A stretch of 50,480 bases of DNA. Source: Candidatus Wolfebacteria bacterium. GTDB taxonomy: Bacteria > Patescibacteriota > Minisyncoccia > Phycocordibacterales > NVSU01. Positions 11,120 through 45,419 of this stretch are shown piece by piece. The stretch is taken from the NCBI GenBank assembly GCA_002401345.1, contig NVSU01000004.1, forward strand, positions 628-51,107. Direction: 5' to 3'. The position numbers and the translations under genes were made by a program. Below the pieces are notes generated by a model that saw only the letters and a list, made by a program, of their open reading frames with translations, was not told where the DNA came from and did no database searches. Each line of letters starts with the position of its first letter. Position 1 is the stretch's first letter.

Positions 11120-11124
11120 TACTA

Positions 11125-11403: not shown

Positions 11404-11406
11404 ATA

Positions 11407-30646: not shown

Positions 30647-30755
30647 GATTTATTTTCTTATGAGCGGAGTGAATTTGAAAATCATCACCCTGTGAAATAA
30701 TCTGCATAAGACAGATTAATTTTCTTCTCTTAAAAGAAAATCATTTCACTGGGGT
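30647..30755 (-). promoter_or_regulatory. Family 2 structured leader before the exonuclease gene
   Basis: Minus strand, 109 nt to the ATG. Terminal helix ACCCCAGTGAAAT / ATTTCACAGGGT (30743-30755 with 30687-30698), two hairpins inside it (TTTTCTT/AGAAGAAAA and AATCTG/CAGATT), then GGGTGATGATTTTC...GAAAAT forming a last helix that ends next to the start codon. A mini-ORF of 11 codons (30650-30685) ends three bases before the ATG. Same plan as the leaders of mreB and ftsZ. Confidence 0.7.
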
Positions 30756-30787
30756 CTGAAAATATATCCCGCTGTGCTTCATTATTG

Positions 30788-31804
30788 TTATAAATATTTT
30801 TGCTTGTTTTTCTTATGTTCTTCAAATGTTTTTCCATAACGAGCTACTCCATCATTTCCATGTAAATAATAGAGATATGGAGATGTCTCAGGACTAATTG
30901 CAGCCTTTATAGAGTCTAGCCCTGGATTTCCGATGGGTCCTGGCGGTAGCCCTTTATTTGTATATGTATTATACGGTGAATCCGTCTGTAAGTCACTGAG
31001 GGTTAATTCAGCACTGCCCTTTCCGTTGATAAATAAAAATGTCGCATCAACTTGGAGTGCAAGACCTATATCTATTCGTTTCCATAGTATTCCTGAGATA
31101 ATTCTTCGTTCATCACTCCTATTGGCTTCTCGTTCTATAATTGACGCCATTGTAATGACATCACTCAACTCTTCACCGAATTCATCTATTTCACTCTGAA
31201 TTGATGATATTTTATTATCAAAAGTATCTTTCATTTGTTTCACCACATCCTTTGATGTGGCTGATGGAAGATAGAAATACGTATCTGGAAATAAATATCC
31301 TTCATCACCTGCGGTGAGTTCAAGAAACTTCTCCGAGTCAAATTCATCCAATGCATTAGCATAAATTCCTGCAATTTCAGTGCGAGACAATCCCTCTGGA
31401 ATAGTTACCTTAAGTGACGTAACATTATAGTCTCCTTTCACAATACGTCGGGCAACACTGATGACACTTATACGCTTTTCGAAAAAATAATCTCCTGCAA
31501 CGATGTGTGTATCTCCACCAAATATAATTGCGAAAAATTGAAATACTGACCCAGAGCGAACTATTTTATGATCATCAAGAAGCTGCGATACTTCATTAAG
31601 AGATGAACCCTTCTCTATACGAATCGTTGAATCTTTAGGAAATTGTAGTGGTGCACTGAGTACGAATAAAAAAATAAGGACAAATAATAATGCACCTCCA
31701 AAAATAATACGTTTCTTAGTATTTAAATTACGATAAGTATTAAAATTAAATTTTCGCTCATCTATGAGAATTTCTTCCATAGATTCGAATGAGTCTGATT
31801 TCAT
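30788..31804 (-). CDS. mltG: Endolytic murein transglycosylase MltG
   Basis: 338 residues. N-terminal cytoplasmic tail, one membrane helix about residues 33-50, a LysM-like domain (RIEKGSSLNEVSQLL), then the catalytic domain with MASIIEREANRSDER (catalytic Glu near residue 216), DATFLFINGKG, SPYNTY and LPPGPIGNPG. It cuts nascent glycan strands at the inner membrane and sets their length; it often works with elongasome genes, and mreB lies 6 kb upstream on the same strand. Confidence 0.95.
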   Translation of the reverse strand: MKSDSFESMEEILIDERKFNFNTYRNLNTKKRIIFGGALLFVLIFLFVLSAPLQFPKDSTIRIEKGSSLNEVSQLLDDHKIVRSGSVFQFFAIIFGGDTHIVAGDYFFEKRISVISVARRIVKGDYNVTSLKVTIPEGLSRTEIAGIYANALDEFDSEKFLELTAGDEGYLFPDTYFYLPSATSKDVVKQMKDTFDNKISSIQSEIDEFGEELSDVITMASIIEREANRSDERRIISGILWKRIDIGLALQVDATFLFINGKGSAELTLSDLQTDSPYNTYTNKGLPPGPIGNPGLDSIKAAISPETSPYLYYLHGNDGVARYGKTFEEHKKNKQKYL

Positions 31805-31822
31805 ATTGTTCCCTATTATATA

Positions 31823-33043
31823 CTATGTAGGCAAATTTGCAGGTGGCTCAGATTTTTTGAATTCAATTCGCTTGAAACTAGGCGTTTCAGAAACCTGTCC
31901 AGGAAAGTGATATATTGTTGCCAGCTCTTCACTATTAAGGACAGATGGTGTTTTTTTATGAGGTGGATAGAAGAACGATCTTCTTTTGTATGCATCAAGC
32001 ATCAATTTTTTTTGTGTTTCTGTTCGTTTACCCGTAATATCCTGCCATGGAAATTTAAACCCTGTGGCAGCTGTAGGTGCAAAACCATTAAGTGAGGCTG
32101 ATCCATATTGCCTCAAACTTCCTATGAGTCCTGAGATATTTGCCGCATTAAATGACCCCTTCTTTGCAAGATAGATACCCCGAATTCCAGTATCGAATCC
32201 TAATTTTGAAATACTTCTTTCTATGGAACTAATCTTATCTTTCTCCCCTTGAGTAAGTGGGAGTGGTTGTTCACCTTCTTTTTTGGGTCTACTTTTCTCT
32301 TTCAACTCTTTAACAAGATCCTCTCCATATTTTTTCCATTTACGAGTTCCTCTCCATGTACCCGGCTTATGATATTCTTTCATAGTTGCTCTAACAAGAA
32401 TCTGAATCCATATTTGTTCATCTGGACCAATATGACCCATGAACTCCATCATAGGTGTAATAGGATCGATTCTCTCAAACTCCTCAAGACTTCCCACTGC
32501 TTTATCCAAACCATAGTCGATATATGTTTTTATTGGATATGGATCAGGCTGTGTGAGACCAAACTCAGCCGCCCACATTTCCCATGTTCCATCCTTTTTA
32601 TATTCCGGAAATGCCTTTGTGTAATCTTCTACTTCATTAATTTCTGCTTGTGGATACTGAGCATATATCTGACTCTCTATTAGATTTTTGAAAAACGCTG
32701 GTATATACATCATAAAATATACATTACCTCCAATAGACACTATTTCAAGAGAAAACCATCCTCGTACCATCCCCACCCAATATAATTTATACCAGTCACC
32801 GGGAAATGTCTGGTAAAAACTGTTAATTACAAGCTCCATTGCTTGAGGAGATTTATGAATTTCTTTCGGTATTTTAATCTGCAGCATCACCCATTTCATT
32901 TTTGAAATGTCTTTTGCATTTTTATAATGTAGTCGAACTTTAAATCCTATCCATAATAAAAGGGCCGCACCTACAAGTGGAGCAAGTGCAATCAGTATAG
33001 GAAATATTTTTTCACCTAGTAGAACAAAAAAATCTATTGTCAT
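31823..33043 (-). CDS. Membrane-anchored protein, possibly secretion-related
   Basis: 406 residues from ATG 33043 (an upstream TTG at 33091 would add 16 hydrophobic residues). One or two N-terminal membrane helices (about 8-30), then a large cytoplasmic part with WKKYGEDLVKELKEK, GFDTGIRGIYLAKKG and, near the end, SEELATIYHFPGQV. From memory, proteins with an ATIYHFPG-type end occur in CPR genomes next to VirB4/TraG-like ATPases; no such ATPase is in this window, so a link to a type IV-like system is only a guess. It sits 18 bases before mltG. Confidence 0.6.
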   Translation of the reverse strand: MTIDFFVLLGEKIFPILIALAPLVGAALLLWIGFKVRLHYKNAKDISKMKWVMLQIKIPKEIHKSPQAMELVINSFYQTFPGDWYKLYWVGMVRGWFSLEIVSIGGNVYFMMYIPAFFKNLIESQIYAQYPQAEINEVEDYTKAFPEYKKDGTWEMWAAEFGLTQPDPYPIKTYIDYGLDKAVGSLEEFERIDPITPMMEFMGHIGPDEQIWIQILVRATMKEYHKPGTWRGTRKWKKYGEDLVKELKEKSRPKKEGEQPLPLTQGEKDKISSIERSISKLGFDTGIRGIYLAKKGSFNAANISGLIGSLRQYGSASLNGFAPTAATGFKFPWQDITGKRTETQKKLMLDAYKRRSFFYPPHKKTPSVLNSEELATIYHFPGQVSETPSFKRIEFKKSEPPANLPT

Positions 33044-33104
33044 ATGGATTAATAGTAATATAAATAAGAATAAAAGAAAATCACTACTCAAGGTCTATAG
33101 AATA

Positions 33105-33650
33105 CTAAAATGTGATTGGGATTCGATGTTCAAGTAATTCTCGTGTAGATCCTCCACTAAATGTATTCTCAAATAATAAAAACCCGGGAATATTCTGATC
33201 CGTATTCGAATATGAAAGTTGCACAGAAAATGCAATAGGTTCAGTCGTTATTGAGTCATCTGTGAGTACTATTGGGATGCGATCAGTAGCTGAGACACCA
33301 TTTAAATCTACAATTCGAACGGTTCCCGCAATACCTTCAAATGAGGGCCAACATGCTACATTTTTTTTCTCATTGGCAATGTGTCCTTCAATTATTACAG
33401 GGTCAACTACTACCTCATGTGGTGTGGGTGACGTGACAACTATTCCACATTCAACGATATCTTGATCAACCTCCACAAGTAGATCTTCATCTGACACCTC
33501 ATCGAGAGTAGTATCAGGGGCTATGTTATTTGATGGAAAAAAAGAATTAAGTGACACAAAGGGCTCGCCCTTAGAAAAAAGCCCTAATGCTACGGCTCCT
33601 AATGTAATTCCCACTGCCGCAACAAGAATTATTGTAATGATTTTTGACAT
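33105..33650 (-). CDS. Lipid/membrane-anchored Ig-like (Gmad2-like) protein
   Basis: 181 residues: N-terminal membrane helix about 4-24, a Ser/Asp/Glu-rich linker, and a beta-rich C-terminal domain from about residue 65 (CGIVVTSPTPHEVVVDPVII, GTVRIVDLNG, FSVQLSYSN). This layout resembles Gmad2-type immunoglobulin-like domains of spore germination and sporulation proteins; the assignment rests on pattern only. Extracytoplasmic location is likely. Confidence 0.55.
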   Translation of the reverse strand: MSKIITIILVAAVGITLGAVALGLFSKGEPFVSLNSFFPSNNIAPDTTLDEVSDEDLLVEVDQDIVECGIVVTSPTPHEVVVDPVIIEGHIANEKKNVACWPSFEGIAGTVRIVDLNGVSATDRIPIVLTDDSITTEPIAFSVQLSYSNTDQNIPGFLLFENTFSGGSTRELLEHRIPITF

Positions 33651-33666
33651 ATGTATTACTGTATAA

Positions 33667-33701
33667 AAAGAAATGAGCCCCTTAGAGACTCATTTCTTTT
33701 T
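33667..33701 (-). terminator. Terminator of the 33718-34746 gene
   Basis: AAAGAAATGAG / CTCATTTCTTT stem with a T run on the minus strand. Confidence 0.85.
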
Positions 33702-33717
33702 CCTTAATTAAGTGTAA

Positions 33718-34746
33718 TTATACTGCTTTATATAGACCGTCTTTTGTTTTCTTAAAGTATTTTGGATTTTGAAGGTTTACCATAATAGTATTTCTCTTCA
33801 AAAATCGTTCCTTCATCATAAGCTCTATAATATCGTCCTTAGAGAGTGCACCTTTTTCTTTTAGAATATCCCTGAGCACATCCTTTACCACTCCATGTCG
33901 GTACCCCCATTCTGAAAGTCCATATGTACCACGTCCCACGAGTACAAATCGAGCATCTTTTATTAATTCATTATGACATGTTGCTGAATTAGTTTTCTTT
34001 TTAAAGACTTCAGTAATTGACTTAGCAACTTCTCTAAAGTGCATTGGTGATCCATGTTGTCGCATCACAAGAAATGCATAATCTTTCACACCTTTTGTTT
34101 TTATATTAGATGAAGTAGCCTTTCCCCATTCACCGAGTGGATTTCTGCTGATTTTTTTTGAAAGTAAAAGCCATCGTCGAGCAATTTCTTGATTTTTATA
34201 TTCGTGATTTAAACTCTTGATTTCGTCTAGGAATTGATCAATCATATCTGCTTCTGCAATAATGTCATCGTTGTTTAATGATTTGTACAGATTCTTTAGT
34301 CCGTCATGTATATGTCCATCAACATCATTATCAACACTCCATCGCGCATTAAAATGATCATCATCTTTGTGGCGTGTAAACTCATCTCCTAATACTAAAA
34401 AGAAATTAATATGGTTTTGAGATAATTTATCTTTTGAAATATGACTTAGTAAATCACCTTCATGAACCACAGAACCCAAAGAAACCATTAACTCTTTAAG
34501 TTCATCAAACACAGCCTTTTCTTGCTCAAATGCATCTGATTTCTTTATTGCCATAAGAGCTGCATTTTCTATTTGTCGCACTCGCTCACGCGTAATACTA
34601 TACATATTACCAATAGACTCTAAAGTCTTTCTCTCAGACTCACCTCCGAGTCCAAATCGATTTAGCACAACATCATAGGCCCTCTCATTTAGGTTACCCA
34701 TAATTTTTTTGCTTATATTTTTTGGTTTAAAAGTTAATGTTGCCAT
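33718..34746 (-). CDS. Regulator with sigma4-like and HARE-HTH-like domains
   Basis: 342 residues. Residues 18-70 contain ERAYDVVLNRFGLGG and LESIGNMYSITRERVRQIEN, a sigma-70 region 4 helix-turn-helix; there is no region 2, so it cannot act as an ordinary sigma factor. About residues 225-290 (YAFLVMRQHGSPMHFREVAK, FVLVGRGTYGLSEWGY) look like a HARE-HTH winged helix as in the RNA polymerase delta subunit, with a second similar unit to the end (KDVLRDILKEKGALSKDDII, 20 residues). Inferred role: polymerase-associated regulator. Own promoter and terminator; monocistronic. Confidence 0.7.
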   Translation of the reverse strand: MATLTFKPKNISKKIMGNLNERAYDVVLNRFGLGGESERKTLESIGNMYSITRERVRQIENAALMAIKKSDAFEQEKAVFDELKELMVSLGSVVHEGDLLSHISKDKLSQNHINFFLVLGDEFTRHKDDDHFNARWSVDNDVDGHIHDGLKNLYKSLNNDDIIAEADMIDQFLDEIKSLNHEYKNQEIARRWLLLSKKISRNPLGEWGKATSSNIKTKGVKDYAFLVMRQHGSPMHFREVAKSITEVFKKKTNSATCHNELIKDARFVLVGRGTYGLSEWGYRHGVVKDVLRDILKEKGALSKDDIIELMMKERFLKRNTIMVNLQNPKYFKKTKDGLYKAV

Positions 34747-34777
34747 AAGTTAATTTGTATGATTATTTACTATGTTG

Positions 34778-34805
34778 ATTTTATCATCACTGTAAAAAAA
34801 GTCAA
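34778..34805 (-). promoter_or_regulatory. Promoter of the 33718-34746 gene
   Basis: Minus strand TTGACT (34800-34805), 16-nt spacer, TAAAAT (34778-34783) with an upstream TG. The rest of the 221-bp gap to rseP (34806-34967) shows no ORF or clear structure. Confidence 0.6.
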
Positions 34806-34967
34806 TTGAATACACAGTGGATTCATGTCATTGTCATCCACCAATTATTCTGACTAATTAAATGGTCTATATGTAAATCGTATCTAAATCAAGCCAGTAA
34901 ATACAGGGCTTATTTGGATAAAATCTTATATTTGCATAATAACAAATAAATCAAATTTTGTCAAAGA

Positions 34968-36065
34968 TTACAATAATTTACCGATATCAAAAAAGGTAAC
35001 CACTACCATGAGTAAGATGAGTAAGAAAAATCCTATTGCATTCAAGGTGTTTGCAATCGAAGGATTAATAGGAGAACCTTTTATCTTTTCTATTAATAAA
35101 AAGAGTAGTCGTCCCCCATCCAGCGCAGGGAATGGGATTAAATTGATGATTGCGAGGTTAATTGAAATGATCGCAGTCAATGAAAGTAGAAATACAAACC
35201 CAAGCTGGGCTGCGTCGCCCACTACCCCAACAATTCCAACTGGCCCTGAGATTTTTGAGATATCGGCTTCTCCTATGAACGCATCTCTAATTAAAAGAGA
35301 GAGAGATACTACTGTATCTTTTGTTATTGTTGCAGTTAATTTTGCTCCTTCAATAAGTGCTTTATGAACTGGAAGTTTCAAAATTCCCACAAGATCCATG
35401 GCTATACCAATAGCAGGAACACTCTCTTCAACAAGGCCAATTTGAGGAAGAAGTGTGACGGATTGAGATATATCATCTCTTTCAAATGTCACTATCAACT
35501 CTTGACCGGGCCGTGATGAAACAAATTCCTTGACGGCTTCTGGTGTAAGTACATCAATTGATGATGTCGGATCACTTACTGAAGTAATTTTATCACCTTG
35601 AATTAATCCTGAAAATCCAGCTGGTGACTCATCTAATACTCCTGTAACCATAAGTGACACATTTGTAACTTCAACTCCCGCTCGTTCTTGTCCTACTGTT
35701 GATGGCAAACCAGCTATTAATCCTATCGACAACAATAGCCACGCGAGTACAAAATTAAAAATTATTCCTGCAGACAACACCGCAGCTTGAATATATTTTG
35801 GTTTGTGTATAAAACTTCGTGATCGATCTGGTCCAGTAAGTGATTCTTCGTCTGGAGTTTCTCCAAATATCTTTACAAATCCACCAAATGGCAATGCATT
35901 AAATGAATACTCTGTTTCACCTTTTTTTACACTAAATAACTTAGGAGGAAACCCAAAGCCAAATTCATCTACTCGTATTCCTGATTTCTTGGCAACAATA
36001 AAATGACCGAACTCATGAACTAACACAAGCACAACCAGAATAACTAAAAATATAAATATAGACAT
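34968..36065 (-). CDS. rseP: Site-2 intramembrane metalloprotease RseP
   Basis: 365 residues. LVHEFGHFIVA near residue 16 is the zinc-binding HExxH inside the first membrane helix, GGFVKIFGE follows, a PDZ domain spans about 130-210 (GVLDESPAGFSGLIQGDKI), and NLIPFPALDGGRLLFLL near 310 gives the third zinc ligand. Family members cut anti-sigma factors and remnant signal peptides in the membrane. First member downstream of frr, as often seen. Confidence 0.95.
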   Translation of the reverse strand: MSIFIFLVILVVLVLVHEFGHFIVAKKSGIRVDEFGFGFPPKLFSVKKGETEYSFNALPFGGFVKIFGETPDEESLTGPDRSRSFIHKPKYIQAAVLSAGIIFNFVLAWLLLSIGLIAGLPSTVGQERAGVEVTNVSLMVTGVLDESPAGFSGLIQGDKITSVSDPTSSIDVLTPEAVKEFVSSRPGQELIVTFERDDISQSVTLLPQIGLVEESVPAIGIAMDLVGILKLPVHKALIEGAKLTATITKDTVVSLSLLIRDAFIGEADISKISGPVGIVGVVGDAAQLGFVFLLSLTAIISINLAIINLIPFPALDGGRLLFLLIEKIKGSPINPSIANTLNAIGFFLLILLMVVVTFFDIGKLL

Positions 36066-36086
36066 ATAATAGAGGTAGAAATTGTA

Positions 36087-36641
36087 TTATTTTTCGAGGA
36101 GATCTATTTCTTTTTTCTTATAAAGAGATTCTAGATTTAGATTAGATGCATCGACTAATTTCTGTAATTCATCTTTAGATCTATATTTATCATCCTCAGA
36201 AATCTCTCCGTTTTTTTGTTTAGTTTGAATATCTTCCCATACCTTTTCTCTTTCTCCTCTCAAGGAAATACGTGCATCTTCTAATTTATCCTTAACTATC
36301 TTCACAAAACTAGTCCTGCGTTCAGTTGTGAGTTGAGGAAAAATAATTCTAATTCCTGTTCCGTCAACAGACAAAGAGACTCCAATATTCAACAGACCAA
36401 TTGCTTTTTCTATTTCTTTAACCTGACTATTGTCATATGGAATTACTCGAAGTGTCTTTGGGTCTTCGATAGTAATGGATGCAATATTGTTTAAAGGAAC
36501 ATGAGAGCCGTATGATTCCACGAGTACTGGATCAAGAAGAACCGGAGACGCAAGTCCGGTGTGTATTTGAGATAATTCTTTTGAAAGCCATTCTTCGACC
36601 TTCACTAGATCTTTTTTAAAATTTATAAAATCGTATGCCAT
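36087..36641 (-). CDS. frr: Ribosome recycling factor
   Basis: 184 residues, the usual length. Splits post-termination ribosomes with EF-G. LSQIHTGLASPVLLDPVLVE (20 residues) holds the conserved R/TGxA region, then PLNNIASITIEDPKTLRVIP and the C-terminal helical EDARISLRGEREK. One conserved Arg of the usual R-T-G-R-A is changed (HTGLAS), a minor oddity. 12 bases downstream of the holB-like gene. Confidence 0.95.
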   Translation of the reverse strand: MAYDFINFKKDLVKVEEWLSKELSQIHTGLASPVLLDPVLVESYGSHVPLNNIASITIEDPKTLRVIPYDNSQVKEIEKAIGLLNIGVSLSVDGTGIRIIFPQLTTERRTSFVKIVKDKLEDARISLRGEREKVWEDIQTKQKNGEISEDDKYRSKDELQKLVDASNLNLESLYKKKEIDLLEK

Positions 36642-36653
36642 ATAGTCCTAGTA

Positions 36654-37355
36654 TTATATCACAAGAGATAAATGTTCTAAAAGCATTTTTACAGATGACC
36701 CCTGTTGATTCATATATTTTCTGCACTTCCACACTTCTTGAAGCGATATAAAATCCTCTTTTGTATTTCTCATATCTGAAGCACTATTCAGTGCAATTTC
36801 AATAGTATTCAAGAATGAAAGTGCATCACCTTTAAGTACTGACGGAGAGGAATATTTTTCATGAGCCCCTAGTAGTTCTTTTACTATTGAAAGTCTGTCT
36901 TCTTTCTCACCTTCAATAAATTTTTTCGCTCGTTCAATTTCGACCGCAGTATTTTGAATAGGAGTATCATTGATTACATTACATCGAGACAGAAGTGTGT
37001 CGATAATATTATTTGCACTAGACATAAGGATAAAAAAATGAACATCCGTAGCTGGCTCTTCAAAAACTTTTAATAGTGCGTGTTGTGCTTCACGTGTAAA
37101 AAAATCTGTATCAATAATTAAAATCTTTTTTGTACCCGCAGCATCAACTCCTTTTTGTACCTGCAGTGATTTTAGTTCACGAGCATCATCGATGGTACAT
37201 ATTTCAAAATTTCTATACATCACATCTGGATTGCCTTCTATCGTAATCCCATTACTACGAATAATATCAAAAAGCTCCTCCTTGATGTGAGATCTGTCCC
37301 CCACAATGAGATATGCGTGGTGAGTAATATCGGTAATGTGAGATTTTAAGCTCAT
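36654..37355 (-). CDS. DNA polymerase III delta'-like clamp-loader subunit
   Basis: 233 residues, AAA+ related. HAYLIVGDRSHIKEELFD stands where a P-loop would be but has no GKT/S, as is common for delta' subunits. ILIIDTDFFTREAQHALLKV and FEEPATDVHFFILMSS are the Walker B and sensor 1 regions, and DTLLSRCNVI contains the SRC motif of clamp-loader arginine fingers. It is shorter than the usual 330 residues, lacking much of the C-terminal collar domain. Confidence 0.8.
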   Translation of the reverse strand: MSLKSHITDITHHAYLIVGDRSHIKEELFDIIRSNGITIEGNPDVMYRNFEICTIDDARELKSLQVQKGVDAAGTKKILIIDTDFFTREAQHALLKVFEEPATDVHFFILMSSANNIIDTLLSRCNVINDTPIQNTAVEIERAKKFIEGEKEDRLSIVKELLGAHEKYSSPSVLKGDALSFLNTIEIALNSASDMRNTKEDFISLQEVWKCRKYMNQQGSSVKMLLEHLSLVI

Positions 37356-37372
37356 ATATATGAATATACTCG

Positions 37373-38383
37373 TTATTTACTTAAGGAGGCTTTCTTGTAT
37401 GTATCTAGATGTTCAAGTGCTATACCTGTTCCATTTACAACACAATACAGAGGTTCTTCAGCAAGATATGCTTTAACTCCAATTTTTCGATACACAAGCT
37501 CAGTCAAATTTCTAAGTAGAGATGATCCACCTGTCATTATAATTCCATTGTCAATAATATCTGAGGACAACTCTGGAGGGCATTGCGCTAATACATCTTT
37601 GATTGCTCGAATCATAAGTCGAAGTTCATTATCAATCGCTTTTGCGATTTCATTTGTAGAAATAGTCGCTGAACGAGGGAGTCCTTGGATAAAATCACGT
37701 CCTTTAATAGTATACGTAAGTTCATCTTCAATAGGAATTGCAGATCCTATCTTAATTTTAACTTTCTCTGCTGTCTTATCTCCGATTGCCAGATTAAATG
37801 TTTTCTTTATGTAGTCGGCAATTGCTTGATCAATTTTATTTCCCGCACATTTTACAGAATTAGATGCAACAATACCTCCAAGAGAAATCACCGCAACATC
37901 AATCGTTCCTCCTCCAATATCAACAACCATATGTCCTTGTGATTGATAAATGGGAATACCTGCACCAATAGCTGCAAGAATTGGCTCTTTTACCACGTAT
38001 GCATTCTTTGCTCCTGCTTTTATTGCAGCTTCCACTACCGCTCGTCGCTCAGTCGAAGTCACCCCTGCAGGAACTGAAATCATCACATCTGGCTTAAAGA
38101 GATTAAAAGGTCCAAGTGCTTTATTTATAAAATATCGAAGCATTGCTTCTGTCACTCGATAATCAGCGATCACACCATCTCTCATGGGACGATACGCAAT
38201 AATACTGTCAGGTGTTTTCCCAATCATGTCCTTTGCTTCACTCCCAATCGCCAATATTTTATTTTTCTGCTCTGAGACAGCGACTACTGCAGGTTCATTC
38301 AATACAATTCCCTTCCCAGGTAAATAGACCAGTGTGTTCGCTGTTCCTAAATCTATTCCTAATTTTTTTGAAAAAAGTCCCAT
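37373..38383 (-). CDS. mreB: Rod-shape actin homologue MreB
   Basis: 336 residues, full length. KLGIDLGTANTLVYLPGKGI at the N-terminus (phosphate 1), MVVDIGGGTIDVAVISLGGI about 155 (phosphate 2), GIIMTGGSSLLRNL about 285 (adenosine). Organises cell-wall elongation at the membrane with MltG-type enzymes. The mRNA has a family 2 structured leader (38384-38483) downstream of a good promoter (38524-38551); no Shine-Dalgarno sequence precedes the ATG. Confidence 0.97.
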   Translation of the reverse strand: MGLFSKKLGIDLGTANTLVYLPGKGIVLNEPAVVAVSEQKNKILAIGSEAKDMIGKTPDSIIAYRPMRDGVIADYRVTEAMLRYFINKALGPFNLFKPDVMISVPAGVTSTERRAVVEAAIKAGAKNAYVVKEPILAAIGAGIPIYQSQGHMVVDIGGGTIDVAVISLGGIVASNSVKCAGNKIDQAIADYIKKTFNLAIGDKTAEKVKIKIGSAIPIEDELTYTIKGRDFIQGLPRSATISTNEIAKAIDNELRLMIRAIKDVLAQCPPELSSDIIDNGIIMTGGSSLLRNLTELVYRKIGVKAYLAEEPLYCVVNGTGIALEHLDTYKKASLSK

Positions 38384-38483
38384 GATAGATTAAAACGAGT
38401 GAAGTGAGTATTTAATCATCACCCTGTGAAATCTTTTGCTACATGCAAAAGAAAAAATCTTTGATTTTTTATTTCACTGGGGT
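38384..38483 (-). promoter_or_regulatory. Family 2 structured leader of mreB
   Basis: Minus strand, 100 nt from the element to the ATG. Terminal helix ACCCCAGTGAAAT / ATTTCACAGGGT (38471-38483 with 38421-38432), two hairpins (AAAAAATC/GATTTTTT and CTTTTGC/GCAAAAG), then a helix GATTAAA/TTTAATC four bases from the start codon where ftsZ has GATTTTC/GAAAATC: the helix is kept while the bases differ. A mini-ORF of nine codons (38390-38419) ends six bases before the mreB ATG. Confidence 0.75.
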
Positions 38484-38523
38484 CTAAAAAAATATACTCA
38501 TTACAATCGTTATTTGTTTGACA

Positions 38524-38551
38524 ATTTTACCATACCGAAAAGGAGTGTCAA
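38524..38551 (-). promoter_or_regulatory. Promoter of mreB
   Basis: Minus strand TTGACA (38546-38551), 16-nt spacer, TAAAAT (38524-38529). Predicts a leader of roughly 135 nt that includes the structured element. Confidence 0.65.
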
Positions 38552-38606
38552 ATTTTAATATATATGTATAATACAATCAGAATAGTGATCATATAAAACA
38601 AAAGAC

Positions 38607-39281: not shown

Positions 39282-39395
39282 CATTATGGGAACATCATAG
39301 TGTATGTATTGTAGTAAGTCGAAATTGTATAAGTAATTAATAATATGTGGCATACATGCTCCTTAAAGAGCGATGTCATTTTTCACTACGGGATG
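39259..39395 (+). promoter_or_regulatory. Family 1 structured leader/repeat, copy C, before priA
   Basis: 132-bp element (39263-39394). Its terminal inverted repeats match copies A and B, the middle is diverged, and the GCTC/GAGC hairpin near the 3' end is kept. Mini-ORF 39259-39300 starts M-N-P-V-V-E-N-D-I. The 3' boundary CTACGGGAT runs into the priA start codon (ATG 39393-39395). Confidence 0.75.
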
Positions 39396-41354
39396 AAAAT
39401 AGTTAGTGTAATTCCATATTCTAAGGGGATTCACAAGGAAACGCTCACCTATTTCAGTTCAAAAGATATTCCTGTGGGAAGTATTGTGACTGTTCCTGTG
39501 AGAAAAAAACTTGTGACCGCATTTGTGACTGAGTCTAAAGATCTTCTCAAGGCAAAGTCTGATGTGAAGTCATCCTCGTTTAATTTAAAAAAAGTTGATT
39601 CGATTGTTGGGCCTTCTCTGTTTAATCAGGAGTTCTTTTACACCGTACGTGACCTTAAAAAATATTATGCGACTCATTCAAGTTTACTGTTTAGTTCCCT
39701 CATTCCAACACTCTTTCTAAAAAAGTACGCACAACTTACGCTTCCTCATATTGCTTCAGAAAAAAGTACCTCGTCTATACGACAAGAAAAATTATTATTC
39801 CAATCTCCTGATGAGGAACGATTGAGTTACTACAAAACCTATATTCGTGAATCATTTGCAAAAGGTGAGTCGCTTTTTATATGTCTTCCAAATAGTAATG
39901 ACATACAAACTTTTCTTCCAATAATTAGCAAAGGGATCGAACAATATGTATTTGTGCTTCATGGTGCCCTTACAGATAAAAAACAAATTGAGGTCTATAA
40001 TAAACTTATTGATGAAACACACCCTGTGGTAATTATCGCAACAGGGTCATATCTCTTTGTTCCACGCAATGATATTGGAACTATCATTGTTGAGCGAGAA
40101 AGTTCATCTACATATAAAACATTCACACGTCCCTATATTGACATGCGAATCGTTGCTGAAATCTATTCTCACTATTTAAATGCCAAGCTCATATACGCAG
40201 ATACATATTTACGAACGGAGACACTGTGGAGACATGATCAAAACGAGTTCTCTGAAGTAGATCAATTTAATTTTAGACCACCTATTCAATTGAAACATCC
40301 TATTATAGATGTAAGAAAAAATATTAAAGACGAACCACAAAAAAAATCTAAAAAATTCTCGGCATTAAATGATGAAGTACTTCAACTTATACACACTGCA
40401 TTAAAAGAAAATAGGAAAATATTCCTCTTTGTACTCCGGAAAGGTCTCGCGGGGATAACGGTCTGTAACGACTGTGGAACAGCAGTACTTTGTGAATCGT
40501 GCTCGGTACCAATGACACTTTTCAATCAGAAAAATAAGATCACCCATAAAGGCAAAAAAGAAAGCATATTCATATGTAATAAATGTAGAGCAGTTAAGAG
40601 AACAAATGTGATATGTAAAGAATGTGATAGCTGGAATCTCGTATCACTTGGAATTGGAATTGAAAGCGTACTAAAGGAAGTCAAGAATGAATTTAGTGAT
40701 GCCAAAGTATTTGTAATTGAAGGTGAAACTGTGAAGACAAAAACTCAGGGTAAAAAAATTATCTCTGAGTTTAATTCATCCACCAATGGAATACTTGTGG
40801 GGACCGAAATGGCACTTTCATATATAAATGAGAAAGTTGATGAGAGTGTGGTGGTCTCATTTGATTCATTGTTCTCAATTCCGGGGTTTAGAATTAATGA
40901 AAGGGTTCTCAAACTTCTTACTTCTCTTTCCTCAATTTCTAAAAACTCGGTACGTATACAAACCAAGAATCCTGATGAATCAATTCTTACACATATTCAA
41001 GAGAGGACCATGGTTGATTTTTTCAGAGAAGAATTAAAGCTGAGAAAACAATTCAACTATCCTCCTTTTTCGACACTTATTAAAATCAGTTTCAGTGGAA
41101 ATACAAAAGATGTAGAAAAAGCTCATGATATGTTTCATACATTATTTAATTCATACCCCCTTGAACTATTCAGGTCAGTTATTACCAAAGGTAAGCGCTT
41201 GCATGCTATACACGCAATACTCAGAATTGATCGATCTACATGGGCACTCCCCTCACGTGGTACTAAAGGCGAGCTCGACACATTGCTTCTCGAAAAACTC
41301 ATCTCTCTCCCTCCTTCATATATAGTACATATCGATCCAGAGGATCTGTTGTAA
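39393..41354 (+). CDS. priA: PriA-like primosomal protein lacking helicase motifs
   Basis: 653 residues. The N-terminal DNA-binding domain (VIPYSKGIHKETLTYFS, VPVRKKLVTAFV) and the C-terminal zinc region (CNDCGTAVLCESCSVPMTLF, CNKCR, CKECDS; eight Cys) match PriA, as do GIGIESVLKEV and FPPF-type NYPPFSTLIKIS. But the Walker A segment (TGSGKTE) is absent, DEEH is replaced by VERESSS, and the QVAGRAGR motif is replaced by LSSISKNSVRIQ. It is thus unlikely to be an ATPase or helicase and may be a scaffold for replisome loading. Start at 39393, at the end of leader copy C; an ATG at 39345 would include the repeat. Confidence 0.85.
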   Translation: MKIVSVIPYSKGIHKETLTYFSSKDIPVGSIVTVPVRKKLVTAFVTESKDLLKAKSDVKSSSFNLKKVDSIVGPSLFNQEFFYTVRDLKKYYATHSSLLFSSLIPTLFLKKYAQLTLPHIASEKSTSSIRQEKLLFQSPDEERLSYYKTYIRESFAKGESLFICLPNSNDIQTFLPIISKGIEQYVFVLHGALTDKKQIEVYNKLIDETHPVVIIATGSYLFVPRNDIGTIIVERESSSTYKTFTRPYIDMRIVAEIYSHYLNAKLIYADTYLRTETLWRHDQNEFSEVDQFNFRPPIQLKHPIIDVRKNIKDEPQKKSKKFSALNDEVLQLIHTALKENRKIFLFVLRKGLAGITVCNDCGTAVLCESCSVPMTLFNQKNKITHKGKKESIFICNKCRAVKRTNVICKECDSWNLVSLGIGIESVLKEVKNEFSDAKVFVIEGETVKTKTQGKKIISEFNSSTNGILVGTEMALSYINEKVDESVVVSFDSLFSIPGFRINERVLKLLTSLSSISKNSVRIQTKNPDESILTHIQERTMVDFFREELKLRKQFNYPPFSTLIKISFSGNTKDVEKAHDMFHTLFNSYPLELFRSVITKGKRLHAIHAILRIDRSTWALPSRGTKGELDTLLLEKLISLPPSYIVHIDPEDLL

Positions 41355-41384
41355 ATATAATCCTAAAATATACATAATAACTGG

Positions 41385-41412
41385 TTGCATTATATACCCC
41401 GTATGGTATTCT
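41385..41412 (+). promoter_or_regulatory. Promoter of rpsU, predicts a leaderless mRNA
   Basis: TTGCAT (41385-41390), 16-nt spacer, TATTCT (41407-41412) with an upstream TGG. ATG is at 41420, seven bases after the -10 box. Confidence 0.5.
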
Positions 41413-41419
41413 GAAGTCT

Positions 41420-41653
41420 ATGCCTACGAGCAAAATAATTATAGAAGTCACAAAGAATAAGAACGAAAACAATATAAATATTGTTCGTCGTTTTTCTCGT
41501 AAAATGAAGGAATCTGGAACACTCAGAAAAGTACGTTCAATTCGATATAAACAAAGAACTCCTTCTGCCTTAACTCTTAAACAATCAGCACTTCGAAGAA
41601 TCGGTAAAGCAAAAGAAAGAGAAGTACTCCGAAAACTAGGTAAAATAAAATAA
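41420..41653 (+). CDS. rpsU: 30S ribosomal protein S21-like (bS21)
   Basis: 77 residues, very basic. INIVRRFSRKMKESGTLRKV aligns with the S21 pattern (A-L-R-R-F-K-R...G-I-L), followed by RSIRYKQRTPSALTLKQSAL and a Lys/Arg-rich tail. S21 binds near the anti-Shine-Dalgarno end of 16S rRNA and helps initiation. First gene of rpsU-ybeY-UDG-like, with ybeY starting nine bases later. Confidence 0.8.
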   Translation: MPTSKIIIEVTKNKNENNINIVRRFSRKMKESGTLRKVRSIRYKQRTPSALTLKQSALRRIGKAKEREVLRKLGKIK

Positions 41654-41662
41654 ACTACTGAT

Positions 41663-42058
41663 ATGGTTTCTTATACCGGAAACAATGTATCTGTACGACG
41701 ACTCACAAATGGCAAGCTTCCGAGCTTGCCATTTACTCGTCTCAAGGAGGCAGTGCTCGGCAAAAAATATGATCTCAGTATTGTATTTGTCGGATCAAAA
41801 ATGTCTCAGGAGATTAATAAGAAATATCGAAAAAAAAATAAACCCACAAATATTCTCAGCTTTGTTCTCTCTGAGGAAAGCGGGGAACTTGTTATTAGCT
41901 TGGGTCAAGTTCGAAAAGACGCTCCCAATTTTAATAAAAGCTATCTCGACTTCCTCGGATTTCTAATTATTCACGGACTGCTTCATCTCAAAGGATATGA
42001 CCATGGAAAAGAGATGGAACTACTGGAGTCAAAATTTTCTAGAAAATTTGGTTTTTAA
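41663..42058 (+). CDS. ybeY: Endoribonuclease/rRNA maturation factor YbeY
   Basis: 131 residues. The zinc site HGLLHLKGYDH (about residues 109-119) is the full HxxxHxxxxxH motif; KYRKKNKPTNILSF matches the upstream conserved block. YbeY takes part in 16S 3'-end processing and ribosome quality control, fitting its place beside rpsU. Near the 5' end (41707-41734) the coding sequence forms a perfect 12-bp hairpin with loop TCCG, encoding TNGKLPSLPFT. A decayed second copy of the zinc-motif region lies at 42974-43028. Confidence 0.9.
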   Translation: MVSYTGNNVSVRRLTNGKLPSLPFTRLKEAVLGKKYDLSIVFVGSKMSQEINKKYRKKNKPTNILSFVLSEESGELVISLGQVRKDAPNFNKSYLDFLGFLIIHGLLHLKGYDHGKEMELLESKFSRKFGF

Positions 42059-42079
42059 CTTTTTTCACTAAATTGAAAT

Positions 42080-42601
42080 ATGGACAATTATAATAAAGTT
42101 GATGTCATGTGGGTTGGTCTCTCCGCTAAGTATATAAAAAATTCAAAAGATATATGTCCCCCGTTAGATGCACGGACTAATTCTGGAAAAGTAGTGTCAC
42201 TTGTTGAGCAACAATTAAATGACTTACGTTATTACAAAACTAACCTAGTTCCCACTCCACCGCTTGATAAGAATGGGAAACTACGTTATCCAACAAATTC
42301 TGAAATGAATAATGGATTTATCTCTCTAGAAAAGGAACTAGTAAAACTGAAGCCTAAGGTTGTGATATTGCTCGGTGAAAAGTCTTCATCGTTTATACAT
42401 AACAAAATTACACATAGTGAGAATAAAATAATCTCAATCGAACCACATGTAGAAATATCTATATATCGCGATATGCATTTTATCTCTGTAGTCCATCCTT
42501 CTTATATATACATTTATAAGAGAAGAGCGCTGGACGAATACATTCAAGAAGTCTGTTATATAATAGATTGCGCTCTTAAAAACAAAGAGGCAATAAAATA
42601 A
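42080..42601 (+). CDS. Uracil-DNA glycosylase superfamily protein
   Basis: 173 residues. MWVGLSAKYIKN (motif A region), PTPPLDKNGKLRYP, LKPKVVILLGEKSSSFI and FISVVHPSYIYIYKRRALDE (HPS, motif B) follow the order of UDG-like enzymes, which remove damaged bases. No iron-sulphur cysteines, so it is not a typical family 4 enzyme; the catalytic residue is not clear and a divergent function is possible. Starts 21 bases after ybeY. Confidence 0.65.
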   Translation: MDNYNKVDVMWVGLSAKYIKNSKDICPPLDARTNSGKVVSLVEQQLNDLRYYKTNLVPTPPLDKNGKLRYPTNSEMNNGFISLEKELVKLKPKVVILLGEKSSSFIHNKITHSENKIISIEPHVEISIYRDMHFISVVHPSYIYIYKRRALDEYIQEVCYIIDCALKNKEAIK

Positions 42602-42613
42602 TACACATTACAT

Positions 42614-42650
42614 TTAATATTTTAAAATATTAAGGATTGTATGATACAAT
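42614..42650. promoter_or_regulatory. Two palindromes upstream of the Cys-rich gene
   Basis: A perfect 20-bp palindrome TTAATATTTTAAAATATTAA (42614-42633) and ATTGTAT-G-ATACAAT (42636-42650). The first might end the upstream mRNA; the second looks like a dimeric operator and overlaps a TATGAT that could be a -10 box. Confidence 0.4.
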
Positions 42651-42686
42651 TTTCCTAGAATATTTTAAAAATTAAAACGTGAGATT

Positions 42687-42932
42687 ATGCCTTCAACTGA
42701 AGAAAACATTTGTGAAACTGAAGATTGTGACAATGTGTTATCTGTAAATGAATTTGGTCACCTTTGCTGGACACAAGCCAATACACTGAGCTATGGTAAT
42801 TGCGAGAGTACTCTATATTGTAATTGTTGTATTGACTGCAGACAAACCTGTCTTGATGGATTTATGGATGACGAAAAAGCTGGAAATATTCCGTCTCCAT
42901 GTGACTCTAATGGTCTTCTGTATAAAGAATAA
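42687..42932 (+). CDS. Small Cys-rich protein, unknown
   Basis: 81 residues, acidic, with ten Cys including CETEDC, CNCCIDC and later single Cys. No signal peptide or membrane helix, so metal (zinc) binding in the cytoplasm is more likely than disulphides. No family recognised. It stands alone, with palindromic DNA upstream and a terminator directly after its stop codon, which supports a real gene. Confidence 0.6.
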   Translation: MPSTEENICETEDCDNVLSVNEFGHLCWTQANTLSYGNCESTLYCNCCIDCRQTCLDGFMDDEKAGNIPSPCDSNGLLYKE

Positions 42933-42960
42933 AAGTCCACGCGTATGCGGGACTTTTTTA
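42931..42960 (+). terminator. Rho-independent terminator
   Basis: AAAAGTCC ACGCGTATGC GGGACTTTTTT, overlapping the stop codon of the Cys-rich gene. Confidence 0.85.
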
Positions 42961-42973
42961 TTTGTGTCTTAAA

Positions 42974-43028
42974 TTCTTAAGACACCTAGTTATTCACGGA
43001 TTACTTAATCTCAAGATATATGACCATG
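42974..43028 (+). pseudogene. Decayed fragment of ybeY
   Basis: Positions 42986-43028 align without gaps to 41963-42005 of ybeY (36 of 43 bases identical) in the same reading frame, reading FLRHLVIHGLLNLKIYDH where ybeY has FLGFLIIHGLLHLKGYDH. The second metal-binding His is Asn. There is no start, so it is a relic of a duplication. Confidence 0.65.
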
Positions 43029-43096
43029 CTATACTTATGGATAAGAAGAAGAAAAATTACCCGTCACATTTGGATTTAATTTTTTTCACGTAAACC

Positions 43097-44263
43097 ATGG
43101 CAAAAAACATCTCAGTTGGTATCGATATCGGGACTCAAACCACTCGCGTAGTGGTTGTTGAATATGTAAAAGGAAAACCTGTGCCCCGAATACTTGGAAC
43201 TGGTAAAAGTGAATCACAGGGACTCAGACAAGGATATATTCATGATTACGAAGCAACAATCGAAAGCATAAAAAAAGCTGTCGCAGAGGCGGAAAAAAAC
43301 GCAGGGGTCACTATTAAAAAAGCATTTGTATCGATTGGGGGAATATCTCTTACTTCTGAGATGGGTCATGGCTATTCAATAATTTCCCGTGGAGATAAAG
43401 AAGTCACTGAGCTCGATATCAACAAAGCAATACACGAAAGTGAGGATGCTATTGATATTAGTAATAAAAAGATTATTCATGTGATTCCCGTAACGTACAA
43501 ACTCGATGGAAATGAAGTACTTGGAAATCCTGAAGGAATGCAAGGAATAAAACTTGAAGTGAAAACTCTTTTTGTGACTGCGATGGAGCGTCATATAGAA
43601 AATCTACTCGGTGCACTCGCTGAGGCAGGTATTGATGTTCAGGATGTGATTGCGGCTCCTATTGCAGCGAGTATGGTTGCGCTTACTGAAAAGCAAAAAT
43701 CTGTGGGGTGTATTTTGATTGATATTGGGGCAGAAACAGTTGAAATTGCAGTATTTGAAAATGGTACAGTATTATCACTTCAAGTCTTCCCTATTGGATC
43801 AATGGATATCACAAATGACATCGCACTTGGATTTAAAATTCCCCTTGAAGACGCAGAAAAATTGAAACGCGGGAATATTGTAGGTGAGTTCCCTAAAAAG
43901 AAATTACAAGAAATTATCACTGCACGCGCAACTGATATATTTGAATACGTAGAAGCGCATCTTAAAAAAATAAAAAGAAACGGACTGCTTCCTGCAGGTG
44001 TAATCATCACTGGAGGTGGATCAAATATTTTAGAAATTGAAGAGCTTTCAAAAAAGATTCTCAGGCTTCCCTCAAGAAAAGGTAATGCACTCATCTTCCA
44101 GGCTAAAAAAGGAAGTGGTGATGCGTCATGGCTTGTTGCACTTGGCTTATGTGTAGTTGGACGAAGATTCTATGATCAGGACTATACACAAGAGACTCTC
44201 TCAAAAACTTTTTCTGGAATTAAGAAATTCTTTAAATCACTTTCTAAACAACTCTTACCATAG
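43097..44263 (+). CDS. ftsA: Cell division protein FtsA
   Basis: 388 residues of the actin fold. SVGIDIGTQTTRVVVVEYV (phosphate 1), the 1C domain about 85-165 with HVIPVTYKLDGNEVLGNPEG (20 residues), CILIDIGAETVEIAVFENG about 207 (phosphate 2), and GVIITGGGSNILEIEELS (adenosine). The C-terminal amphipathic tail FFKSLSKQLLP would bind the membrane and tether FtsZ. ftsZ is 1.2 kb downstream, separated by a minus-strand orphan. Confidence 0.95.
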   Translation: MAKNISVGIDIGTQTTRVVVVEYVKGKPVPRILGTGKSESQGLRQGYIHDYEATIESIKKAVAEAEKNAGVTIKKAFVSIGGISLTSEMGHGYSIISRGDKEVTELDINKAIHESEDAIDISNKKIIHVIPVTYKLDGNEVLGNPEGMQGIKLEVKTLFVTAMERHIENLLGALAEAGIDVQDVIAAPIAASMVALTEKQKSVGCILIDIGAETVEIAVFENGTVLSLQVFPIGSMDITNDIALGFKIPLEDAEKLKRGNIVGEFPKKKLQEIITARATDIFEYVEAHLKKIKRNGLLPAGVIITGGGSNILEIEELSKKILRLPSRKGNALIFQAKKGSGDASWLVALGLCVVGRRFYDQDYTQETLSKTFSGIKKFFKSLSKQLLP

Positions 44264-44265
44264 TA

Positions 44266-44304
44266 AAAATTCCACTTAGACGTCCGACGTCTAAGTGGAT
44301 TTTT
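44266..44304 (+). terminator. Terminator of ftsA
   Basis: TCCACTTAGACGT / ACGTCTAAGTGGA stem of 13 bp with flanking A and T runs. Confidence 0.95.
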
Positions 44305-44314
44305 AAAATAGGAA

Positions 44315-44345
44315 ATAAAAAAGCGCTGGAAATTTTCCAGCGCTT
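44315..44345 (-). terminator. Terminator of the 44418-45164 gene
   Basis: AAAGCGCTGGAAA / TTTCCAGCGCTTT with a T run on the minus strand. Confidence 0.9.
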
Positions 44346-44417
44346 TGCGATGCCCCGTACCGAACTTCCTAGAGCGTCCGAACCACTCGGAGTAGCTTAC
44401 TCTGGTACTTGGAGTGC
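44346..44417 (-). other. GC-rich structured 3' UTR, possible small RNA
   Basis: 72 bases between the stop codon at 44418 and the terminator, clearly more GC-rich than the surroundings. GTACC/GGTAC, AGAG/CTCT and ACTC/GAGT can pair to one branched structure. It resembles a 3'-UTR-derived sRNA or a decayed tRNA; no known family fits. Confidence 0.35.
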
Positions 44418-45164
44418 TTAAGCCATTTTTTCATGCAATTCAGGAATCCACTCACCTGACCATGATGTTAAATAGTCAGCACCTTTTCTACTTAACACAT
44501 GCAAAGAATTATCGCGCCCATACATGACAACTGAAAAGGCAAATCTATCACTTCGTTTTTGCTTTCTTCCAAATCTTTCCTCATAATAATCAATTGCATT
44601 TGAAAAAAAGCCGCTATGTACCTTTGCGTTAGCAACGGCTTCTATAAAAACAGAAAAGAGATTGAAGTTTATATTACAGAATCTCGCAACATATTCCACA
44701 AATTGTGGATGTGTGACCTTGATATTATGTAAGGCCAATTGTTCGATGATAAATATGGTCATATTCAACTGCTCATCTCTTAAACTATTCGTAATATCTA
44801 ACTCAGTAAGTTTTTCAGTAAAAATAGAAATAACTATTTCATCTCTTCGTTCCTGTGCCTTGTCTGACAATATCCCCTTTTTCTCTTCAGTCAGTTCGAA
44901 ACTGAATATATTTTTTAACAGAGAAATTCGAGGATGAGAAACTTTAGTAATAAAAAGTTTATAAATCTCTATCCTTTTTTTATTGTCGCTAATCTTATCG
45001 ATAACGATAAATTTTTTATCATTAAATAAAAAGTTGCCAAGAACGTGCAAAAATTTTTTATCTCTGTACACATCGAGTGATTCAAGTAGTTTTTTTAAGT
45101 AGGAATATAATTCATCTTCCGAATACTTTAGTACTTCCTTCAGGCGAAATGGTTCTCGTTTCAT
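44418..45164 (-). CDS. Hypothetical protein
   Basis: 248 residues from ATG 45164 (an upstream TTG at 45200 is less likely). Helix-rich, basic and soluble, with KRSDRFAFSVVMYGRDNSLH and WSGEWIPELHEKMA at the C-terminus. No motif or family recognised. It lies on the minus strand between ftsA and ftsZ, with its own terminator behind a structured 3' UTR. Its promoter region faces that of ftsZ. Confidence 0.55.
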   Translation of the reverse strand: MKREPFRLKEVLKYSEDELYSYLKKLLESLDVYRDKKFLHVLGNFLFNDKKFIVIDKISDNKKRIEIYKLFITKVSHPRISLLKNIFSFELTEEKKGILSDKAQERRDEIVISIFTEKLTELDITNSLRDEQLNMTIFIIEQLALHNIKVTHPQFVEYVARFCNINFNLFSVFIEAVANAKVHSGFFSNAIDYYEERFGRKQKRSDRFAFSVVMYGRDNSLHVLSRKGADYLTSWSGEWIPELHEKMA

Positions 45165-45284
45165 ATTAGAATTATTAAAGTTCAACGGTATTATTACCAA
45201 CTACAATATATCATGTTATTAGTGATTTGTCAAATATATCACATAGGTATTTGTTTTTTTGATAATTCTGGTATCATAGAGGCA

Positions 45285-45302
45285 TATAATAATCAAAGGA
45301 GG
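45285..45302 (+). promoter_or_regulatory. TATAAT box and orphan Shine-Dalgarno before the ftsZ leader
   Basis: TATAAT (45285-45290) is followed by a near-perfect Shine-Dalgarno AAAGGAGG (45295-45302), but no start codon follows at a usable distance; ftsZ starts 118 bases later, behind the family 2 element. No good -35 at 16-18 bp; TTGATA (45259-45264) is 20 bp away. Confidence 0.45.
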
Positions 45303-45322
45303 TTTAGATAATCAATATTTTT

Positions 45323-45419
45323 ACCCCAGTGAAATAGCGACTTCGTCGCTTCTTGCTACACAAGATTTCACGGGGTGATGATTTTCTGAAGCTCCTTTCA
45401 GTCACCAAGAAAATCTATC
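45323..45419 (+). promoter_or_regulatory. Family 2 structured leader of ftsZ
   Basis: 97 nt to the ATG. Terminal helix ACCCCAGTGAAAT / ATTTCACGGGGT (45323-45335 with 45365-45376), here with all four G-C pairs closed; hairpins AGCGAC-TTC-GTCGCT and CTTG-CTACA-CAAG; then GATTTTC/GAAAATC (45380-45386 with 45409-45415) enclosing CTGAA/TTCAG, and TATC before the ATG as in mreB. TCACC (45402-45406) could pair with GGTGA (45374-45378) in an alternative fold. Confidence 0.75.

Follow-up and report, generated by a model that had tools for sequence, protein, structure and literature searches.

The window analysed here, a stretch of 50,480 nucleotides (nt) from the genome of a Candidatus Wolfebacteria bacterium (contig NVSU01000004.1, positions 628 to 51,107), contains three similarly folded leaders that end at the start codons of ftsZ, mreB and an exonuclease gene. 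Are these leaders, as an earlier note on this sequence proposed, a functional RNA that couples cell division to elongation, or do they belong to an element of a different kind? We consider it likely (probability of about 0.72) that all three are copies, lacking an open reading frame (ORF), of a family of mobile elements that inhabits intergenic gaps in an order of Patescibacteria (Parcubacteria) and consists of GIY-YIG elements together with derivatives resembling miniature inverted-repeat transposable elements (MITEs). A mobile element fits better than a regulon because the downstream genes are heterogeneous, the presence of the element is patchy within a genus, the interiors of the copies are alike within genomes, and some copies carry a nuclease gene. 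A leader whose dedicated role is to couple ftsZ with mreB is not supported.

The shared layout is present at all three sites as described in the earlier note. In each copy, a closing helix, denoted P1 (ACCCCAGTGAAAT paired with ATTTCAC(A/G)GGGT), surrounds two inner hairpins and is followed on the 3' side by a further hairpin, P3, the end of which directly abuts the ATG. Folding alone yields P1, both inner hairpins and the P3 stem in the three copies, and the core string ATTTCACRGGGTGATGATT, with three mismatches or fewer, occurs 3 times in the window versus 0.07 in shuffled sequences. The claim of a covarying structure holds in part: P3 and the inner hairpins vary, the latter being unrelated in sequence among the three copies, and covariation emerges when relatives are included (see below), but P1 within the window is constant except for one A/G and shows no covariation. 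The GTG-AAA-stop pattern that had been pointed out in the first helix is not conserved, being present in 6 of 13 copies in this genome according to our reading of the sequences, and a mini-ORF was accordingly rejected.

The copies were scored with two models, R1, built from 10 of 12 copies (those of aspS and the DUF167-like gene were left out), and R2, a covariance model of P3 alone that includes the ATG columns. The ftsZ copy, on the forward strand, comprises P1 and the two inner hairpins at 45323-45376 (P1, 45323-45335 with 45365-45376; hairpins, 45336-45364; R1, 81.2 bits) and P3 at 45377-45419, abutting the ATG at 45420 (seen in the fold; R2, 45.6 bits over 45373-45422). On the reverse strand, the corresponding parts of the mreB copy lie at 38421-38483 (P1, 38471-38483 with 38421-38432; hairpins, 38433-38470; R1, 92.1 bits) and at 38384-38420, next to the ATG at 38383 (R2, 54.3 bits over 38381-38424), and those of the exonuclease copy, also on the reverse strand, at 30687-30755 (P1, 30743-30755 with 30687-30698; hairpins, 30699-30742; R1, 88 bits) and at 30647-30686, next to the ATG at 30646 (R2, 51.3 bits over 30644-30690). 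The genes themselves are ftsZ (45420-46598, forward; TIGR00065, 404 bits), mreB (37373-38383, reverse; NF010539, 457 bits) and a DnaQ-type 3'-5' exonuclease (30095-30646, reverse), for which the best NCBIfam match, NF006316 at 100 bits, is under the cut-off of 247.

The genome of origin (897 kb, 24 contigs) contains about 15 copies of the element. Of the core string, 8 copies are exact and another 6 deviate at one to three positions; among these 6, one (C8) looks like a chance match and one other is inverted. The copies precede comEC, nusA, the exonuclease gene, mreB, ftsZ, a DUF167-like gene, aspS, rplL, rpsN, fusA, rplB and hppA, and R1 adds ndk and others. NCBIfam supports the identities of ftsZ, mreB, nusA, aspS, rplL, rpsN, fusA, rplB, the membrane pyrophosphatase gene hppA and ndk, and more weakly that of the exonuclease gene; comEC and DUF167 are our own readings of the sequence. 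Directly upstream of the start-codon copies of rpsN, fusA, rplB and nusA (loci L009, L010, L011 and L049), there is a second P1-type element, and some of these second elements start after a recurrent ..AACATT|ACCC.

The further copies in related genomes that the earlier note anticipated were readily found. Of the 297 genomes from the order, R1 matches 63 and R2 88, and the element was detected in 32 of 383 genomes of the class; these prevalences are lower bounds because the searches of many genomes used stricter filters and limited how many matches per genome were scored. In a sample of 145 genomes of the phylum, matches were limited to the genome of origin and one genome outside the class (G728), where two matches lie beside tRNA and GIY-YIG sequences (by eye) and not at an ATG. 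The exact consensus pattern matches 44 stretches in named genomes, which include Nomura-, Taylor-, Lloyd-, Zambryski-, Yonath- and Vogelbacteria and the 'Parcubacteria/Patescibacteria group', the rest being labelled simply 'bacterium'. An Rfam scan of the window detected only tRNAs, with no match at the leaders; at five related loci, it produced only six miRNA-type matches, all under the gathering scores, and at seven loci bearing GIY-YIG sequences, there was none at E<=0.1 and no match to a group I or group II intron model. PADLOC gave no match, and the portions of the literature that our search returned contained no report of such an element. The proposal of a structured family is supported, with real covariation and no Rfam family in the window or at these 12 related loci.

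To characterize the position of the element, we used a set of 144 distinct matches, which were drawn mainly from the best-scoring ones and so are biased toward canonical copies; P1 in this set was placed as the best-pairing upstream stretch and was not counted as evidence. In 136 of the 144, an ATG lies within 8 nt of the model end, a location at the 5' ends of genes that agrees with the earlier note and is partly built into the model, and 127 open a frame that has at least 40 codons or runs off the locus. The downstream genes are heterogeneous, including nusA, ribosomal protein genes, fusA, groEL, dnaK, pilB and others. In total, 133 downstream proteins match 450 NCBIfam models, with NusA the commonest (8 of 133), followed, among the first 25 of the 450 families, by PilB, GlmS/asparagine-synthase types, RNA polymerase, L11, L20, DnaK and GroEL (3-5 each). 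The genes that follow the element thus cover a wide range of housekeeping functions instead of forming a division/elongation pair, and the restriction to functionally linked genes expected of an ftsZ-mreB regulon was not observed. The gene downstream of locus L329, which we had considered to be mreB, is dnaK according to NCBIfam.

P3 is a selected hairpin, as RNA or as single-stranded DNA, because its pairs covary across 38 aligned sequences (37 distinct). In this alignment, 90.3% of the P3 cells are paired compared to 80.5% in shuffles, both partners are changed in 10 of the 15 pairs, and the alignment has a covariation score of 0.284, compared to 0.126 +/- 0.010 in shuffles and at most 0.058 in slid controls. 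The apical loop is closed by GC in 10 sequences, CG in 8, UA in 8 and GU in 2, and these positions are unpaired in 9. The possibility that the P3 foot is a guide matching the native sequence before the ATG was unsupported: in the window list, inspected by eye, TC precedes the ATG only in the three element copies.

One pointer to the nature of the element comes from copies that contain a gene. In six of these, the copy at aspS in the genome of origin (L061) and loci L127, L241, L279, L298 and L337, a complete ORF of 84-91 codons lies between the P1 strands; in five, it ends with ...RLKSYFTG or ...YLTG followed by TGA, the stop being positioned across the P1/P3 border, and in L127, it extends four codons beyond the end of the other five. 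The protein encoded in the aspS copy is 87 residues long. All three of the proteins given to Pfam contain the GIY-YIG catalytic domain PF01541 (best E 7.8e-18). The full-length form can thus be written as [P0 hairpin]-[P1 5' strand]-GIY-YIG ORF-[P1 3' strand]-[P3 hairpin]-ATG, where P0 is an upstream hairpin considered below. In all six ORF-containing forms, P1 is closed in the fold, and the ORF together with the nucleotides immediately preceding it makes up two long inner helices, so that the ORF is threaded through the P1 three-way junction with its last codons in the P1 3' strand. For P1 and both inner helices, 95.7% of the cells are paired and 10 of 35 pairs are changed on both sides, in a structure that was drawn from the same sequences on which it was scored; 0 of 500 shuffles were as high on either measure, and slid versions reached at most 50.5%. 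Many short forms, including the three copies in the window, lack the ORF but retain P1, P3 and two inner hairpins, and in other short forms, only a long P1 is present, enclosing an interior of unrelated sequence. The GIY-YIG forms, with P0, P1 and P3, thus provide a full-length partner with the same ends, as would be expected of MITEs. Altogether, the genome of origin has nine GIY-YIG matches, two of which we read as lying inside such elements; locus L370, located before yebC (by our reading), represents a second type, in which P1 is different and the open frame has 79 codons, and the GIY-YIG frame of L369 looks like uvrC.

The hairpin P0 is found upstream of P1 in many copies, and its loop, GAGCGAAGCGA, corresponds to the opposite strand of the P3 loop, UCGCUUCGCUC, read 5' to 3'. 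For analyses of P0, the 144 elements were reduced to 121 by removal of six antisense rows, rows with a weak P1 and rows without an ATG. The P0 motif, with two mismatches or fewer and at most 42 nt from P1, is present in 64 of the 121 copies compared to 18.1 in shuffled sequences (highest, 32). P0:P3 pairing exceeds that of mono-shuffled upstream sequences (19.3 vs 14.9; 38 elements), and a broad duplex score gives a weak own-pair excess (297 of 10,000 permutations as good; 41 elements). Focused scores showed no clear preference for own pairs (z 0.08, n=121; z 1.1, n=38; z 2.2 for 36 deviating loops), and hence we do not claim direct pairing of P0 with P3. Because there is no clear covariation between the two, we read P0 and P3 as probable inverted ends of the element and not as two sides of one helix. 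Together with the pairing P1 strands and the R1 matches on the opposite strand of the three window copies, the P0 motif accounts for the terminal inverted repeats that are typical of MITEs.

In the window itself, candidates for P0 are weak. A possible decayed inverted end of the ftsZ copy at 45283-45322 (forward strand; antisense R1, 24.7 bits over 45283-45376) contains AAAGGAGGTTTAG, which is complementary to the P3 loop and ranks 1 of 121 by pairing score, and on its own forms no clear hairpin. The possible P0 of the mreB copy, AAATAACGATTGTAATGAGTATATTT, is at 38484-38525 on the reverse strand (antisense R1, 32.2 bits over 38420-38525; antisense R2, 13.8 bits, E 0.43), and that of the exonuclease copy at 30756-30796, also on the reverse strand (antisense R1, 29.8 bits over 30686-30796); the latter covers the stop codon of the upstream gene (30788-30790) and likewise forms no clear hairpin on its own. 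The mreB copy has promoter-like sequence ahead of it and no same-strand gene just upstream, with a TTGACA/TAAAAT promoter further upstream (by eye); a TATAAT upstream of P1 was rejected as a promoter, given that it falls within the P0 hairpin.

Within one genus, g55, the element is present in some species and absent from others. In 14 of 16 species, rpsS and rplV are separated by only 2-48 nt, and in the other two (G260 and G788), the gap is 210 or 219 nt and filled with the element, so that empty sites in relatives, another hallmark of MITEs, are apparent. Upstream of rpsS, the element is present in 3 of the 16 species (G260, G788 and G054; the motif script flagged two, and G788 was added by eye), and G123, G236 and perhaps G780 have a P1-like helix without P3 (by eye). 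Many g55 species contain, upstream of rpsS (L346-L361), a sequence resembling a promoter and, after it, a hairpin resembling a terminator (CGAGCTC..GAGCTTG, TTTTGTTT), which together are perhaps an attenuator. We also compared the interiors of 114 elements, having dropped those outside 15-140 nt: a score of 30 or higher is reached by 7.3% of the 205 same-genome pairs versus 0.47% of the 6236 different-genome pairs, and none of 2000 label permutations yielded a same-genome mean as high. Apparent sister copies in the genome of origin are those at ftsZ with those at rpsN and hppA, and that at mreB with that at comEC.

If the three leaders are mobile elements, the short forms would be internal-deletion, MITE-like derivatives of the full-length form. 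The GIY-YIG nuclease would cut either the target or the branched ends of the element, whereupon repair or transposition would copy the element, and it would act in trans on ORF-less copies as well; we infer that the GIY-YIG forms mobilise the short ones in this manner. Upon transcription, the insert would fold into compact helices against the start codon, which would limit harm to the operon, and in many copies, the folded insert would also be located close behind the upstream stop codon. Effects on the expression of ftsZ or mreB would be incidental or the result of later co-option.

Several observations weigh against a mobile element. The model end coincides with the ATG in 129 of the 144 matches, a very exact position, even if R2 holds ATG columns and the native gaps span no more than a few nt, and the covariation of P3 pairs beside the ATG suggests selection on the hairpin in place. 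Core genes recur downstream (NusA, 8 of 133), as a regulatory or vertically inherited leader would also predict. The presence of the element differs among species, but no movement was observed; the g55 species with filled and empty sites have diverged (their RpsS proteins are 49-64% identical to that of G260), and no target-site duplication was found between these species, which are too diverged to define the junctions. Furthermore, GIY-YIG similarity upstream of P3 was detected in only 9 of the 144 elements, 57 of the 121 copies yielded no P0 motif, P0 is weak in all three window copies, and only 6 of 10 interiors in the genome of origin have their best match in that genome.

One rival is the regulatory interpretation, namely, a cis-regulatory RNA, either a riboswitch or a protein-bound leader, that co-regulates growth genes including ftsZ and mreB. 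It would account for the covarying structure, the location at 5' ends and the recurrence before nusA, rplK, rplT, groEL and other genes in different genomes; the element is found again before ftsZ in G263 (L330) and before mreB in G405 (L131), both identified by NCBIfam. However, the inner hairpins and the P3 loops show no aptamer-like conservation, and heterogeneous genes, variation within a genus, a nuclease gene in some copies and interiors that are alike within genomes are hard to reconcile with regulation, so that we regard this explanation as unlikely.

An alternative that is somewhat more unlikely involves translation initiation and stems from the state of the ribosome in these bacteria. 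The absence of a Shine-Dalgarno (SD) sequence at the three genes, which the earlier note pointed out, is genuine but does not set them apart: AGGA, GGAG or GAGG at -20..-4 precedes 1 of 43 window genes (our choice from the ORF list) versus 1.01 expected from shuffled upstream sequences, and in the only 16S rRNA gene found in this genome (L019, G000:C6:49932-51426), helix 45 is followed by GAATAATTC, without the anti-SD CCTCC. GGGTGAT was dropped as a candidate extended SD since the 16S tail lacks its complement. In the order, CCTCC is present in 0 of 25 readable 16S tails (seven loci were unreadable), a frequent reading of which is GTGGAATATTTCAA or a similar sequence. Of 40 tails from outside the class, 38 have CCTCC and the other two are one mismatch off (four unreadable). 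The other orders of the class are a mosaic, with CCTCC kept in 18 of 45 readable genomes and missing in 27 (six unreadable), and our initial idea, based on three genomes, of a class-wide loss was rejected. All four readable element-bearing genomes from these orders lack CCTCC (G339 reads TCTCC), an association that is not significant alone (Fisher p=0.14). Without an anti-SD, there is no SD-AUG spacing to break, and thus its loss may explain why inserts directly against the AUG are tolerated.

The corresponding hypothesis is that the element is a portable translation-start module, in which P3, with P1, would set anti-SD-less ribosomes at the AUG or would tie termination at the preceding stop codon (P0) to reinitiation at the AUG. 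P3 abuts the AUG. Of the 121 copies, 100 have a same-strand frame of 60 or more codons upstream, and in 45 of these, the stop of that frame lies 15-50 nt before P1, with the P0 motif in 35 of the 45. Nevertheless, only about 15 genes of the genome carry the element, orthologues without it have gaps of 2-48 nt, and P0 and P3 show no clear element-by-element pairing. P3 may help, hinder or be neutral for the translation of ftsZ and mreB. That the element is an intercistronic RNA-processing or stability element, in which P1 would undergo RNase III-type cleavage while P0 and P3 would serve as a 3' end and a 5' end, respectively, is very unlikely, as the sequence offers no direct evidence of it and the mreB copy sits behind a promoter-like stretch with no same-strand gene just upstream, even though long helices occur between stop and start and palindromic intergenic repeats of other bacteria act in this way.

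Wolfebacteria and Campbellbacteria are candidate phyla that belong to Parcubacteria. Single genomes of both lack CCUCC according to one report (PMC10783764); our results agree with it on candidate phyla without CCUCC and differ in that the loss here extends to all 25 readable tails of one order and to 27 of 45 in other orders of the class. A survey lists 128 species without the anti-SD core, mainly Bacteroidetes, Tenericutes and Proteobacteria (PMC6107228), and according to a review, the 16S tail is bound by the product of era, a gene that most members of the candidate phyla radiation (CPR) have lost (PMC10582724). Within the literature retrieved in part by our search, no report of an order-wide loss of the anti-SD was found.

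Sequences related to the element also occur at tRNA genes. In the window, at 11123-11478, the 3' end sequence of tRNA-Arg (cct), GATTCCTGATGAGGGCATA, is repeated about 280 nt on, with a P0-like hairpin in between and an R2 match (28.5 bits) at 11297-11328 on the forward strand, opposite to the tRNA; an element without the ORF may be located here, at the 3' end of the tRNA. At L123, L133, L134 and L232 (G728), the same hairpin motif, not followed by an ATG, lies beside GIY-YIG ORFs or tRNA 3' ends (by eye), which suggests a related, tRNA-targeting variant. In the genome of origin, a GIY-YIG ORF is located between repeats of a tRNA 5' end, TTCCGCAGTAGCTC, at L367 (G000:C6:2256-2465), and another, at L365 (G000:C11:21982-22194), within an inverted repeat, CCGTACGAAAT/ATTTCGTACGG, with its stop overlapping the ATG of the next gene.

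Thus, what appeared to be an RNA regulon of division and elongation becomes evidence of mobile elements that colonise start codons of core operons, including those of ftsZ, mreB and ribosomal protein genes, and regulation should not be the default reading of covariation at gene starts in these genomes. The hosts are genome-reduced bacteria, and a link to the order-wide loss of the anti-SD is a testable idea on how start codons are invaded and found. A bolder possibility, which we find doubtful, is a new class of mobile elements in which the fold belongs to the machinery, the GIY-YIG ORF sits in a three-way junction, insertion occurs between stop and start, and P3 is a portable translation start in a lineage without the anti-SD.

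The closest known systems are MITEs and palindromic intergenic repeats, such as ERIC, Correia/NEMIS, RPE and REPIN. Like these, the element is short, folded, intergenic and ORF-less, has inverted-repeat ends and is present in many copies per genome; unlike them, it has a fuller form that encodes a GIY-YIG nuclease, its probable partner, in place of a DDE or Y1 transposase, and has one end directly at start codons and, in many copies, a three-way junction. Free-standing GIY-YIG homing endonuclease genes, such as the seg genes of phage T4 and others, similarly encode a single PF01541 domain and are located between genes, beside conserved ones, but in the element, the ORF lies inside a covarying RNA or DNA fold with inverted ends and has many ORF-less derivatives at many sites. 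A scan of 30 16S loci for the loop motif of the element found it in none of the 16S genes, both matches being outside the 16S match. Insertions that carry GIY-YIG ORFs and resemble introns of neither group I nor group II have been described in CPR rRNA genes (PMC11270868). The elements analysed here share with these insertions the GIY-YIG ORFs and the lack of similarity to either intron group, but whereas those reside inside rRNA genes, these precede protein-coding genes.

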